64,000 nt of DNA from Clostridia bacterium (GTDB lineage: Bacteria > Bacillota > Peptococcia > DRI-13 > SM3-B62), in contig JAHDSQ010000007.1 of assembly GCA_018432615.1 (NCBI GenBank), positions 1-64,000 of the forward strand. The letters are read 5' to 3'. The stretch's first letter is position 1. Every line of letters starts with the position of its first letter. Positions 10,330 to 45,960 of this stretch are shown here, in pieces. The translations under genes were made by a program, and so were the position numbers. The notes below the pieces were generated by a model. The model did not search any database. It had not been told where the DNA came from and was given only the letters and a program-made list of their open reading frames with translations.

Positions 10330-10977
10330 TTACAGTAATTCTATTGATTTTGTATCGTATCTTATCAGTCCCTCTTTTTTCATCTTGGCTAATTCTCTTG
10401 ACAGGGATGTGCGTTGAACGCCGATTTTTTCAGCCAAAGCCTTTTTGGTTATATTTAATATGACACGATTTGAATTCTGCCTTTTTTGCTCATATTCAAG
10501 AAAACTCATGATGCTTTCCCGTATCGTTTTGTTGACATAGTGTTTTATTCTGTCCCCGAGGATTGAGGCGTGGTCTGAGACGAATTGAAGATAGCTTCTT
10601 AGGAACTCATGATTATCTGAGAATAATTGAAAGGAACGTTCTTTGTTTATCCCCAGGATTACGGTGGGTTGTTTCACGGTAATGGTCATTGGGTAATAGG
10701 GATTTCTGGAGAACATTAGATTGCCGCCCAAGATTTCGTCACTGAAAAATTCCGCGATAGTCATAAGATTTCCCGCTTCGTCAATGCGTTCGACAACCAC
10801 CTTGCCGGAGAGGATGATTTCAAGCTTGGAGCATACTTCGCCGGAAAAATGGACGATGTTGTTTTTATGATAGGTACGTATTACGAAGCTTCCGTCCTGC
10901 AGGTAAGAATTTATTTCTTCAGCAGATAATGAGCTTAAAAGACTGTTTTTCTTCATGAGGTCCATATATTTATTCAT
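10330..10977 (-). CDS. Crp/Fnr-family regulator, HcpR-like by context
   Basis: A 215-residue protein with an N-terminal cyclic-nucleotide-binding-like fold (about 10-125), a long dimer helix, and a C-terminal Crp-type HTH (KKALAEKIGVQRTSLSRELAKM). It has no cysteine cluster like that of FNR, so O2 sensing by an Fe-S cluster is unlikely. It is divergent from genes for a permease, a ferredoxin domain and a flavo-diiron protein, which suggests a nitrosative/oxidative stress role as in HcpR. That role is inference. A strong site (GGAAAGGAGG) precedes its ATG at 10977. Confidence 0.88.
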   Translation of the reverse strand: MNKYMDLMKKNSLLSSLSAEEINSYLQDGSFVIRTYHKNNIVHFSGEVCSKLEIILSGKVVVERIDEAGNLMTIAEFFSDEILGGNLMFSRNPYYPMTITVKQPTVILGINKERSFQLFSDNHEFLRSYLQFVSDHASILGDRIKHYVNKTIRESIMSFLEYEQKRQNSNRVILNITKKALAEKIGVQRTSLSRELAKMKKEGLIRYDTKSIELL

Positions 10978-11001
10978 AGAGAATTCCTCCTTTCCTCACA
11001 A

Positions 11002-11023
11002 GGGTGTTACATCGGTAACACCC
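11002..11023. promoter_or_regulatory. Perfect 9-4-9 inverted repeat, candidate Crp/Fnr operator
   Basis: GGGTGTTAC-ATCG-GTAACACCC. The inner GTTAC-N4-GTAAC has the 5-4-5 spacing of Crp/Fnr operators. It lies between the divergent regulator and permease genes. Its centre is 41.5 bases before the start point expected for the rightward promoter (-10 TATGAT, 11042-11047) and just downstream of the start point expected for the leftward promoter. A T-run follows on the plus strand, so terminator activity cannot be excluded. Confidence 0.75.
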
Positions 11024-11031
11024 TTTTTACC

Positions 11032-11060
11032 ATTATATCTTTATGATGTAAGTACGGCAA
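11032..11060 (-). promoter_or_regulatory. Promoter of the Crp/Fnr regulator
   Basis: On the minus strand, TTGCCG (11060-11055), a 17-base spacer and TATAAT (11037-11032). The start point would fall near 11025, so the inverted repeat would be transcribed as the first bases of the message, a position typical of autorepression. Confidence 0.6.
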
Positions 11061-11089
11061 GATGAGGAAAGCGAATAAGGAGGGAACTT

Positions 11090-11572
11090 ATGGATATATT
11101 TACTGTAATGTTTTGGATTATTGCGATTGTACTAACTGCTATTTCACTGAGAAAAAGTAAAACAAAAACCTTTGCTGCTATGAAGAAATCAAAAGGTATG
11201 ATGGGTAGTATGCTGAGTGATATCATTGCTATCATATTTTTGATTGGCTTGGTTCTAACCTTTATTCCACCGGAGACGATTAAGAATGTTTTAGGCTCAG
11301 CCAACACATTTGTGTCGACAGTCGCTGCGGCAGTTGTCGGCAGTATTACCCTGATTCCTGCCTTTGTTGCCTTTCCTTTGGTTGGTTCTCTAGTAGACGT
11401 AGGGGCCAGTATTGTTCCCGGAGTTGCGTTTTTGACGACGCTCACGATGGTTGGTTTTGTGACATTTCCCCTTGAGAAAAAGGAATTCGGAACAAAATTT
11501 GCGTTGACCAGAAATGTGTTGAGTTTCGGTTTTGCTCTGGTCATTGCCTTAACTATGGGGGTGGTTCTATGA
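11090..11572 (+). CDS. Permease half, ArsP_1/DUF318-like
   Basis: A 160-residue membrane protein with about four or five helices. The glycine/proline-rich central stretch VGSITLIPAFVAFPLVGSL resembles the conserved core of the ArsP_1 (DUF318) permease superfamily, normally a single protein of over 300 residues. The other half appears to be the next gene, whose ATG overlaps this stop by four bases, so the pair probably makes one transporter. The substrate is unknown. AAGGAGGG precedes the ATG. Confidence 0.7.
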   Translation: MDIFTVMFWIIAIVLTAISLRKSKTKTFAAMKKSKGMMGSMLSDIIAIIFLIGLVLTFIPPETIKNVLGSANTFVSTVAAAVVGSITLIPAFVAFPLVGSLVDVGASIVPGVAFLTTLTMVGFVTFPLEKKEFGTKFALTRNVLSFGFALVIALTMGVVL

Positions 11573-12306
11573 AGGTTGGTGCGCTAATCAAAAGAAACAA
11601 ACTGCTTATCCTGGTGGCACTTGCATACCTTGCGATATTCATTATGTCGCCCAATAAAGCCATTATGTCAGTAGAAAACAGTGTTTACTACCTGATTGAG
11701 ATGTTTCAAGTGCTTCCGGTTATTTTCCTTTTGACCGTTGTCATAGAAGCATTGGTCCCGAAGGATCTCATTATACGGGGCTTCGGTGAAGAATCAGGCC
11801 TCAAGGGGAATTTCTTTGCTTTGCTGTTCGGCAGTTTATCGGCGGGCCCAATTTATGCCGCGTTTCCCATTAGTAAAACCTTATTGGGTAAAGGTGCCAG
11901 TGTATCAAATATAGTAATCATTCTGAGTGCTTGGGCGGTTATTAAGGTTCCGATGCTTGCTAATGAGGCAAAGTTTCTTGGCGCAAATTTTATGGCTGTG
12001 AGATGGGTGCTTACTGTGATAGCCATATTTATAATGGCCTATCTTACCGGGTTATTTGTGAAAAAGGAAGATATGCGTTCCGCAGAAAGTGGCCAGGAGA
12101 CACGGGAACTCGAGATAAATGAGGGGTATTGTATCGGTTGCGGGCTTTGTGTAAAACTTCTTCCTGAATATTATGAGATGAAGGAGCAGAAGGCAGTCGT
12201 GAAAAAAATGCCGGAAGGGAAAAAGGCGAAACAGGCAGTCAGGGAGTCTGCAGAAAGGTGTCCCGCTAAGGCTATTATTTTTGATATGGAGGAAAAAGCA
12301 TCCTGA
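11569..12306 (+). CDS. Permease half with C-terminal ferredoxin domain
   Basis: The N-terminal 165 residues hold several membrane helices with a second permease core (FGSLSAGPIYAAFPISKTLL). After a charged linker comes a ferredoxin-like domain with CIGCGLC (near residues 188-194) and CPAKAI (near 231-236), the four-cysteine pattern of a single-cluster ferredoxin. A redox cluster on a transporter half is unusual and suggests redox gating or electron transfer at the membrane. It is translationally coupled to the first half and followed by fprA. Confidence 0.75.
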   Translation: MKVGALIKRNKLLILVALAYLAIFIMSPNKAIMSVENSVYYLIEMFQVLPVIFLLTVVIEALVPKDLIIRGFGEESGLKGNFFALLFGSLSAGPIYAAFPISKTLLGKGASVSNIVIILSAWAVIKVPMLANEAKFLGANFMAVRWVLTVIAIFIMAYLTGLFVKKEDMRSAESGQETRELEINEGYCIGCGLCVKLLPEYYEMKEQKAVVKKMPEGKKAKQAVRESAERCPAKAIIFDMEEKAS

Positions 12307-12401
12307 GGTAAATAATTCGAAAAACAGTGGTTGTCAGAGACTGGCTATTAAGTGATAATAAAACCAAACCCAAATAAAAACAAGAAAGGGAGTGACCATA
12401 C

Positions 12402-13589
12402 TTGAAAAAACCAATAAAAAATAATGTATCTTGGGTAGGCAAAGTCGACTGGGAGCTGCAAAAATTTCATGGTAATGAATACTCGACCCATAAAGGCTCT
12501 ACGTATAATTCATATTTAATAGAAGAGGAAAAAACTGTTTTGATTGATACGGTGTGGGCCCCGTTTGCAGAGGAATTTGTTGATAATCTGGCTAAGGAAA
12601 TAGATCTTAACAAGATTGATTATGTTGTGGCAAATCATGGAGAAGTCGATCATAGCGGGGCACTTCCCGCCTTGATGAAGCGTATTCCTGACAGACCGAT
12701 TTATTGTACAACCAATGCGGTTAAATCTTTAAAAGGGCAATATCATCAAGACTGGAATTTCCGTGTGGTCAAAACAGGGGACAAGTTAGATGTCGGAAAC
12801 GGTAAAGAATTGGTGTTCGTGGAAATGCCGATGCTGCATTGGCCTGATAGCATGGCAACATATCTTACCAAGGATAATATTCTGTTCAGCAATGATGCCT
12901 TCGGGCAGCATTACGCAACCGAAAAACTGTTTAATGATTTGGTGGATCAGTGCGATCTTTTCAATGAAGCGATAAAATATTACGCTAATATCTTAACTCC
13001 ATTCAGTCATGTTTTAAGAAAAAAATTGGCGGAAATCGTGTCCTTTAACTTGCAAATTGAGATGATAGCTACAAGCCACGGTGTCATTTGGAGAGAAAAT
13101 CCAATGCAGATTGTTGAAAAGTATTCCCAATGGGCTAATGATTATCAGGAGAATCAGATTACCGTTATTTATGATACGATGTGGAACGGTACAAAAATGT
13201 TGGCCGAAAAAATAGCGGAAGGTATCGGTTTAGCAGACTCGGATGTGGTTGTGAAGGTTTTTAATTTGGCCAAGGGTGATGAAAATGATTTGATTACAGA
13301 AGTGTTTAAATCAAAAACCGTCGTGTTCGGTTCCCCTACTATAGCCAATAGTATCCTTCATTCGGTCGCAGGTTTTATCCATTTGATGAAAGAATTAAAA
13401 TTCAAAAATAAAAAGGCGGCGGCTTTTGGCTGCTACGGCTGGAGTGGAGAAGCCGTCAAGGTCATAAATGGGTTGATGGGTGATGCAGGGTTTGAGGTCA
13501 TGGACGAAGGATTCAGAACTCAATGGAACCCTGATGTTGAAACACAAAATGTCGCATTGGAATATGGCAAAGGGATAGCAAGGGCGTGA
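12402..13589 (+). CDS. fprA: Flavo-diiron protein (A-type flavoprotein)
   Basis: Reduces O2 to water and/or NO to N2O in anaerobes. The N-terminal metallo-beta-lactamase domain has diiron ligands His79, Glu81, Asp83 and His84 in NHGEVDH, with further ligands in LHWPD, SNDAFG and TSHG. The flavodoxin domain starts near residue 255 (VIYDTMWNGTKMLA). At 395 residues it has no extra C-terminal module and so needs a rubredoxin partner, which may be the one at 46 kb. TTG 12402 follows AAAGGGAG. Together with the upstream permease/ferredoxin genes it likely belongs to the unit controlled by the Crp/Fnr regulator. Confidence 0.93.
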   Translation: MKKPIKNNVSWVGKVDWELQKFHGNEYSTHKGSTYNSYLIEEEKTVLIDTVWAPFAEEFVDNLAKEIDLNKIDYVVANHGEVDHSGALPALMKRIPDRPIYCTTNAVKSLKGQYHQDWNFRVVKTGDKLDVGNGKELVFVEMPMLHWPDSMATYLTKDNILFSNDAFGQHYATEKLFNDLVDQCDLFNEAIKYYANILTPFSHVLRKKLAEIVSFNLQIEMIATSHGVIWRENPMQIVEKYSQWANDYQENQITVIYDTMWNGTKMLAEKIAEGIGLADSDVVVKVFNLAKGDENDLITEVFKSKTVVFGSPTIANSILHSVAGFIHLMKELKFKNKKAAAFGCYGWSGEAVKVINGLMGDAGFEVMDEGFRTQWNPDVETQNVALEYGKGIARA

Positions 13590-14371: not shown

Positions 14372-15460
14372 CTACTCTAAAACGACGTTGTCTATAATAT
14401 AATCCAGAACCGACTGATGGAGTGCCGTTAGCTTTAGGTATGGCATACCATAGGTTTCTTCATATTCCGAATGATCCTCTGTTCCAAAGTACTTTGAGAA
14501 ATAAGCTGTCAAGTCCTCGTCGGTTACTGAAATATCGGTATCCTCGGCAATCGCTTGGAGGATAAGATGATATTCGGCATTTTTCTTGTTATCATCGTGG
14601 TTTGTTTCCAGCAGTTCTTCAGTCGTTGAGACTCCCATGTAGGTGTTTAAAAATTCCTCAAACTCCACGCCGTAATTTTCGGCGTTACTTTTATAGTATT
14701 TAATCATCAAGTTTTCTTGATATTCAACAAGAGTATCGGGGAGGGAATTAATTGTCGTATTCTCATAAATGTAATCCTGTACATAATGTGCAATAGCTTC
14801 GTGTTGCAAGTTATCCTTAACGTATTCTTTCATCCCTGCGACGGTTTTAAAATCGAAACGGGATGAAAAGTTGGTAACAACAAAATCATCGGTCAATTCG
14901 GGTGTAACATTCTCAACAATGTGATTCAACGTTACTGCGAATACAGCATCCTTGCCGTTGAGTTCTTCCTTACCGTAGTCTTCGGGGAATGTTACTTCAA
15001 TATCAAATGATTCTCCGGGGCTATGACCGATAAGCTGTTCTAAAAAGTCATCTATATAGGTCGTGACGCCGATGGTAACGTTTGTACCTTGGCCTTCGGT
15101 GCTGCCTCCTTCAAAATTTACACCGTCTATACTGCCGACATAGTCGATATTGACTGTATCGCCGTCAGCGACAGCGCGGTCTTTTATTTGGTTTTCATAT
15201 GAAAAATTGGCTATAATGCTGTCAACCTCTGCTTGAACAGCTTCATCCGAAATCTCGTGAATGTCTTTAGGAATGGTTATTCCATTATATTCACACAATT
15301 TGACTTGATCATAAGCTGTAATGTCCTTCCAAAAGCCGTTTTTGTCAATACCGTCGCTGTAAGTGAATTCCTTAGGCTCGGTTTCGGAACAACCGACAAA
15401 AGTGAATAATGCAAAGGAAATGACGAGAATGAGCGACAGGACCGTTTTATAGTTTTTCAT
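14372..15460 (-). CDS. Lipoprotein with trigger-factor-like FKBP prolyl isomerase domain
   Basis: A signal peptide with lipobox FVGC (Cys24) places it on the outside of the membrane. An FKBP-type domain (about 95-185: GDTVNIDYVGSIDG, GHSPGESFDIEVTFPEDY) is followed by a helical region like the trigger factor C-terminal chaperone arms. The ribosome-binding domain of cytoplasmic trigger factor is absent. It probably assists folding of exported proteins, in a role comparable to PrsA; that is inference. It ends against the sfsA terminator. Confidence 0.85.
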   Translation of the reverse strand: MKNYKTVLSLILVISFALFTFVGCSETEPKEFTYSDGIDKNGFWKDITAYDQVKLCEYNGITIPKDIHEISDEAVQAEVDSIIANFSYENQIKDRAVADGDTVNIDYVGSIDGVNFEGGSTEGQGTNVTIGVTTYIDDFLEQLIGHSPGESFDIEVTFPEDYGKEELNGKDAVFAVTLNHIVENVTPELTDDFVVTNFSSRFDFKTVAGMKEYVKDNLQHEAIAHYVQDYIYENTTINSLPDTLVEYQENLMIKYYKSNAENYGVEFEEFLNTYMGVSTTEELLETNHDDNKKNAEYHLILQAIAEDTDISVTDEDLTAYFSKYFGTEDHSEYEETYGMPYLKLTALHQSVLDYIIDNVVLE

Positions 15461-44796: not shown

Positions 44797-45960
44797 CTAC
44801 TCAAGCACTTCTTGAATCTTTTTCACAACCTCGGTTAACTGCTCCTGGCTCGGAATGTATTGCAGTCTCACTTGTTCCATTAATTCAAAGCCTGCCCCTT
44901 TGAGGACTTCCTCTACCTGACCAACGCTTTGTCCTCCCCAACCATAAGAGCCGAAGGCCAAACCAATCCTGTTCTTTGGCGCCAGCCCTTTCATGTAGGT
45001 CAGAAAAGCGGAGACTTTAGGCAGCATATTGTTATTTAGAGTAGAGGAACCCACACAGACATATTTTGCCGTGAGTACCTCGGGCATCACATCGGAAATG
45101 TCGCTGACCTGCAGATTCATAATCCTTGTGCTGACGCCCTTGGCCTCAAAGGCACTCCCAATCGTCCGGGCGATTTTTTCTGTGGAACCCCACATGGTAT
45201 CATAGACTACTACAACCTTATTCTCTGTTTCATTGGCGGACCATTTAACATATTCCTGAAGGATAGCCGGGATGTTTGAACGCCAAATAATTCCATGGCT
45301 GGGTGCAATTATTTCAATATCCAAGGTGGAGACGGTTTCTAAGGCTTTTTGCACTTGACTGCCATAAGGGAAAACGATATTAGCGTAGTATTTGCCTGCT
45401 TCCTCCAGCAGAACACCCAGAGAGATCTGGTCATCAAAACGCTCCGGTGAAGCGATGTGCTGGCCAAAGGCATCGTTGGAAAAGAGGATTTTTTCTTCTG
45501 CTAGATATGTGACCATATTATCCGGCCAATGGACCATAGGGGTTTGCACGAAAGACAAACTCCGGCTGCCTAAGTTTAGCGTATCCCCGGATTTGACCAC
45601 GGTGTAATCCCAATCTCCTTGATAGTGAGCTTTTAGGCCTTTTTCTCCGTTGGGAGAAGTGATGATTTTTGCCTGGGGGGCTACTTCCATAATTCGTGGG
45701 AGGGAACCGGAATGGTCCATTTCCACATGGTTAGATACTACATAATCAATGCGGGAAGGGTCGATTACATCCGCTATGCGTGACAGCATCTCGTCATATA
45801 AATAATGTTTAACCGTATCTACTAAGGTAATCTTATCATCAATGATCAGATAAGCATTATAGGTCGTACCTCTGGGAGTTAAGTAACCGTGAAAACTGCG
45901 AATATCCCAGTCGATGCCGCCGACCCAGTAAATGTTTTCCTTTAGCTTAACTGCCTTCAT
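44797..45960 (-). CDS. fprA: Second flavo-diiron protein
   Basis: A 387-residue paralogue of the protein at 12.4 kb. Diiron ligands lie in NHVEMDH (His78, Glu80, Asp82, His83), VHWPD, SNDAFG and PSHG; the flavodoxin domain begins near VVVYDTMWGSTEKIA. It differs clearly from the first copy in sequence. It is downstream of a rubredoxin-flavin reductase gene by 16 bases, giving a complete NAD(P)H-to-O2/NO chain as described in Moorella. Confidence 0.94.
   Translation of the reverse strand: MKAVKLKENIYWVGGIDWDIRSFHGYLTPRGTTYNAYLIIDDKITLVDTVKHYLYDEMLSRIADVIDPSRIDYVVSNHVEMDHSGSLPRIMEVAPQAKIITSPNGEKGLKAHYQGDWDYTVVKSGDTLNLGSRSLSFVQTPMVHWPDNMVTYLAEEKILFSNDAFGQHIASPERFDDQISLGVLLEEAGKYYANIVFPYGSQVQKALETVSTLDIEIIAPSHGIIWRSNIPAILQEYVKWSANETENKVVVVYDTMWGSTEKIARTIGSAFEAKGVSTRIMNLQVSDISDVMPEVLTAKYVCVGSSTLNNNMLPKVSAFLTYMKGLAPKNRIGLAFGSYGWGGQSVGQVEEVLKGAGFELMEQVRLQYIPSQEQLTEVVKKIQEVLE

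Follow-up and report, generated by a model that had tools for sequence, protein, structure and literature searches.

The window, by which we mean the whole 64,000-nucleotide stretch of DNA analysed here, carries a gene for a Crp/Fnr-family regulator (crp) that is divergent from two permease genes, permA and permFd, which overlap by 4 bp and are followed by fprA, a gene for a flavo-diiron protein (Table 1). The palindrome between the divergent genes has perfect 11-bp arms and contains the core GTTACATCGGTAAC (GTTAC-N4-GTAAC) at 11006-11019. With up to three mismatches allowed, the window has an inverted repeat of this kind at a single place, and none of 100 shuffled sequences has one. The four genes, the overlap and the GTTAC-N4-GTAAC repeat had all been described in the original prediction and are confirmed here, with the repeat proving longer, at 26 bp, than first described. 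The fprA product contains both the ODP beta-lactamase and the flavodoxin domains. Elsewhere in the window are a second flavo-diiron protein gene (44797-45960, minus strand) and a stretch (14372-15460) encoding a putative lipoprotein which, judged by eye, resembles a trigger-factor/FKBP-type peptidyl-prolyl isomerase.

Table 1. Genes and regulatory features of the locus, in window positions.
Feature	Position	Strand	Basis
crp, Crp/Fnr-family regulator, HcpR2 paralogue	10330..10977	-	Pfam cNMP_binding and HTH_Crp_2; tree
permA, half-size ArsP_1 permease subunit, 160 aa	11090..11572	+	Pfam; invariant residues
permFd, half-size ArsP_1 subunit with C-terminal single [4Fe-4S] ferredoxin, 245 aa	11569..12306	+	Pfam
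fprA, flavo-diiron protein without rubredoxin tail	12402..13589	+	NCBIfam NF008887 above cut-off
26-bp operator palindrome, AAGGGTGTTAC-ATCG-GTAACACCCTT	11000..11025		Core conserved in relatives; covaries with recognition helix
-10 box TATGAT of rightward promoter	11042..11047	+	TA-N3-T at equal offset in relatives
Candidate leftward crp promoter, TTGCCG-N17-TATAAT	11032..11060	-	Consensus match only

Conservation and gene neighbourhood of the cassette

One genome per species was scanned, and relatives of PermFd were encoded at 130 places; the best 80 of these, taken with the window, make up the 81 loci analysed. The permA-permFd pair is present in 81/81, and a related Crp/Fnr gene adjoins it in 72, being divergent in 63 and downstream of permFd in six; several of the nine loci without an adjacent regulator are cut by contig ends. 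The conserved unit is the regulator together with permA and permFd, and its holders are anaerobic bacteria, mostly clostridia. Clostridial-type cassettes were also seen in MAGs labelled Alphaproteobacteria and Brocadia (L006, L008), probably owing to binning contamination. In the sister genome (G001) nothing matches the ferredoxin-tailed protein at orthologue level, so horizontal gain of the cassette, or its loss from that genome, is possible.

A recurrent neighbour is a small cupin (~104-116 aa), found in 44/80 loci and placed between the operator and permA in 25 of them and just downstream of permFd in 14. An hcp gene lies within 6 kb in 11/80 loci against ~0.45 expected, an expectation that assumes two copies per 3 Mb, and a few of the 11 loci are closely related to one another. 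In nine of the closest cassettes, the gene directly after permFd encodes a NapH-like 4Fe-4S membrane protein, with frames mostly overlapping or abutting. The cupin, hcp and NapH-like partners had not figured in the original prediction. RIC/ScdA genes (L064, L077), hemerythrins (L008, L009, L054, L057) and flavodoxins (L064, L066, L077) also occur nearby. The suspected tie to HcpR and nitrosative stress is thereby upheld through the hcp, cupin and RIC/ScdA neighbours and through paralogy to HcpR2, with the refinement that the regulator is a paralogue with an operator of its own. Arsenic-type genes (Acr3-like or full-length ArsP) are found near 7/80 loci, and in four loci (L020, L085, L007, L012) such genes, an Acr3-like transporter, an ArsR-like regulator or a full-length ArsP, are adjacent to the cassette.

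The flavo-diiron protein fared differently. An expectation attached to the original prediction was that the permease-ferredoxin gene co-occurs with fprA or the regulator in other genomes; this holds for the regulator, but fprA is not supported as a regular partner, lying within 6 kb in just 3/80 other loci (L020, L048, L054). The expectation is 0.67 under an assumed three copies per 3-Mb genome (P about 0.03), making the link weak at most, and fprA was rejected as a core member on this count. In L048, permFd, a cupin gene and fprA follow one another on one strand, so the operon may extend into fprA there as well. In the window, fprA is an incidental or local addition, possibly also by extension of the operon.

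Operator geometry and the matching of regulator to site

The palindrome is centred at 11012.5, which is -41.5 as reckoned from the TATGAT box with its predicted +1 at 11054; judged from sequence, this geometry is a class II activator arrangement. Promoter-like matches near the operator are no commoner than in shuffles (nine found vs 8.8 expected). The case for the rightward promoter therefore comes from footprinting across relatives and not from its match to a promoter consensus. When 46 non-redundant cassettes were aligned on the operator centre, the T, A and T of a TA-N3-T box stood at +29.5, +30.5 and +34.5 in 98%, with the box thus 29.5 bp from the centre, and a ribosome-binding-site-like signal appeared beyond it; no -35 element was conserved in this alignment. 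The class II activation of the permease operon that had been proposed from this single locus is thus strengthened across species. The leftward promoter and the self-repression suggested with it fared less well. The sequence and geometry are present, and a crp message started from this promoter would carry the palindrome as its first 26 nucleotides (+1 to +26), but the position of the promoter is kept in only 22% of cassettes; self-repression is plausible here on geometric grounds, without being a conserved feature.

Most loci carry GTTAC-N4-GTAAC or its mirror image, GTAAC-N4-GTTAC, between regulator and operon, and the type of site follows the regulator. The recognition helix of crp reads QRTSLSRELAK, and an R[T/S]SL helix goes with GTTAC-N4-GTAAC in 51/51 cases while RPSL goes with the mirror site in 4/4. 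Position 181 in CRP numbering is specificity-determining, and GTAACnnnnGTTAC is the site of HcpR2, which has proline there (Rodionov et al., 2005, PMC1274295, in the passages concerned). At this position, Thr (46) and Ser (5) accompany GTTAC and Pro (4) accompanies GTAAC, with no exceptions among the 55 rows in which regulator residue and operator type were both scored. Although the match is perfect, phylogenetic support is modest: the operator type switches three times on the best tree, and only one independent pair remains on strongly supported branches. The covariation therefore argues strongly in mechanistic terms, and modestly in statistical ones, that regulator and operator belong together. 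Overall, these sequence comparisons support the view that the divergent Crp/Fnr regulator acts on the permease operon as a class II activator. In ten distant cassettes with an RPSLFREL helix (L073-L076, L078-L080, L082-L084), neither the GTTAC- nor the GTAAC-type palindrome was found; some of them have a TTGA-containing inverted repeat instead.

The genome from which the window derives appears to hold both types of circuit. Its only hcp (C38) comes immediately after a gene of the cassette cupin family (L100, 3147-3482), and upstream of this cupin-hcp pair lies GTAACCGCAGTTAC, the published HcpR2 site, also 29.5 bp from a TATAAT. A second Crp/Fnr relative of the genome (L102) has the RPSL helix and is likely HcpR2 and a candidate regulator of hcp. 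Given this helix and the mirror-image sites, it is probable that of two paralogous regulators one acts on the hcp operon and the other on the permease operon; L058 and L064 each hold the two systems side by side within a single locus, every system having a regulator and a site type of its own. The two share regulator class, Crp/Fnr architecture, an N4-spaced palindrome, the 29.5-bp spacing, a cupin partner and a near-invariant cysteine (Cys49), but HcpR2 (RPSL) has GTAAC-N4-GTTAC where the cassette regulator (RTSL) has GTTAC-N4-GTAAC. The cassette regulators form a branch separate from HcpR2 (support 75), and the regulator described here is not an HcpR in the sense of one that controls hcp via GTAAC-N4-GTTAC, as its site differs and lies at a permease operon. 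Mirror-image operators of two paralogous regulators within one genome would offer a clear natural example of a single recognition-helix residue setting specificity. The 16-mer TGTTACN4GTAACA has a single exact site in the genome, at the cassette, and with up to one mismatch it matches six times against 17 for a reversed-pattern control, so we do not claim further targets.

By sequence, the closest solved relatives of the regulator are 1o5l and 9day. The latter is mentioned in the structure paper on P. gingivalis HcpR, in which Met68 is the likely heme ligand (PMC12750200). Met68 aligns to R64 of the window regulator, and almost every cassette regulator has K, R or S in that column; heme-based NO sensing at this residue is not supported by the alignment. 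As L102 has K in this column, Met68 may mark the Gram-negative HcpR group only. Cys49, found in 65/67 cassette regulators and also in L102, is a candidate sensor residue, and the signal would be NO or a related species.

The permease halves and the ferredoxin tail

Both permease products score above the ArsP_1 gathering cut-off in Pfam (47.6 and 55.1 bits vs 32.3). Since each matches the first half of the model best, PermA and PermFd look like two related half-size subunits and not like an N- and a C-terminal half. Conserved stretches are TLIPAFVAFP and FLTTLTMVG in PermA and GSxSAGPIYAAFP and AWAVIKVPM in PermFd. The C-terminus of PermFd is a Fer4_13 single-cluster ferredoxin whose cysteines (C188, C191, C194, C231) are invariant in 64 sequences; these four are the sole invariant cysteines, with none conserved in the membrane parts. 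In sequence and model the domain resembles the single-cluster ferredoxins of P. furiosus and D. africanus (Fd I), with a like fold and cysteine spacing, but here it is fused to a permease half. A transporter fold could not be assigned by structure: the AlphaFold model of PermFd (pLDDT 78.7) confidently matched ferredoxins only, and that of PermA was poor (68.7). The predicted permeases differ from ArsP and other PF03773 members in comprising two half-size subunits, in the ferredoxin tail, in the absence of conserved membrane cysteines and in their Crp/Fnr control. The permease-ferredoxin fusion is, on sequence evidence, a conserved family and a putative transporter.

Not every split permease requires a ferredoxin tail, as the same genome has a second split ArsP_1 pair without it (C15; L098, 6684-8478), divergent from another Crp/Fnr gene and also present in the sister genome. 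Glutamate-mutase-like and citrate-lyase-like genes, named by eye, adjoin this second pair.

Proposed function and alternative explanations

The reading we favour, and consider more likely than not, is that of an inducible nitrosative-stress cassette in which an HcpR2 paralogue activates genes for a heteromeric ArsP-type permease, redox-coupled by its ferredoxin. The regulator would bind its own 26-bp palindrome and, from -41.5, activate permA-permFd as a class II activator, with possible read-on into fprA at this locus. PermA and PermFd, as different half-size ArsP-type subunits, would jointly form one permease, and the [4Fe-4S] cluster of PermFd would most likely couple it to the redox state of the cell, either through electron input or through a cluster that, when damaged by NO or oxidation, gates transport. 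Sequence shows the gene content, the operator and how it is placed, the way operator and regulator covary, and the linkage to hcp and the cupin; we infer the signal (NO or related species), heteromer formation, the direction of transport, the substrate and the role of the cluster. We suggest only tentatively that the pair is a new kind of transporter whose cluster directly drives or gates the export or import of a compound of nitrogen-oxide stress, such as nitrite, hydroxylamine or a nitrosylated product of iron or a thiol, in concert with Hcp and the cupin. A widespread gene pair of anaerobes is tied to the Hcp nitrosative-stress system by operator geometry, covariation and gene linkage, and the covalent attachment of a ferredoxin to half of a permease would be an uncommon means of coupling redox state to transport.

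The same neighbours could be read in terms of electron transfer, with the permease halves mainly anchoring a ferredoxin that, along with the NapH-like protein of relatives, supplies electrons to Hcp, FprA or the cupin, and transport being secondary. The position of the NapH-like gene directly after permFd, the ferredoxin-like frdX in hcp operons elsewhere and the fprA that follows permFd here would all fit. However, polar and glycine/proline positions are strictly conserved in both membrane halves, which suggests a transport path and not a mere anchor, and we regard the electron-transfer reading as unlikely. Alternatively, the pair might export methylated arsenic or a similar metalloid or organometal in the manner of ArsP, the ferredoxin then serving either to reduce the exported compound or to sense redox state. 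The methylarsenite permease ArsP is itself a member of ArsP_1, and full-length ArsP (near L007, L012, L029, L084, L085) and Acr3-like genes (near L020, L059, L085) occur in the vicinity of some cassettes. Against this, the membrane parts are without conserved cysteines, the regulator is of the Crp/Fnr (HcpR2-like) type and not ArsR, and linkage to hcp and the cupin is stronger, leaving metalloid efflux distinctly unlikely. It is highly improbable that the palindrome acts mainly as an RNA hairpin, a terminator or attenuator, in place of an operator. Its 11-bp arms, 4-nt loop and the T run that follows on the plus strand have the look of one, but a terminator scan found none in the region, the rightward start would lie downstream of the palindrome and the core tracks the recognition helix; the terminator reading was rejected, and the regulator-operator covariation already goes most of the way to refuting it.

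The favoured circuit is a known prediction from 2005 that is strengthened here. Rodionov et al. (2005, PMC1274295) predicted that a divergent paralogue of HcpR2 controls a permease/ferredoxin operon in C. tetani, and this locus, CTC0896-CTC0897-CTC0898 (HcpR2 paralogue, permease, ferredoxin-like protein), by the published description likewise comprises a divergent Crp/Fnr regulator and a permease/ferredoxin-like pair associated with nitrogen-oxide stress. That prediction is a single sentence without a function, and the passages of PMC1274295 around it are silent on the permease half of the ferredoxin protein, the cupin and a mirror-image operator. Literature beyond PMC1274295 yielded nothing on a substrate of ferredoxin-linked COG0701/YraQ/UPF0718 proteins, split ArsP or CTC0897/0898. 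What the present analysis adds to those passages is the linkage to the cupin and the NapH-like protein, the mirror-image form of the operators and the recurrence of the class II geometry in different species. The cassette cupin family also adjoins hcp in other genomes (L110, L111, L112) and may be a new partner of Hcp.
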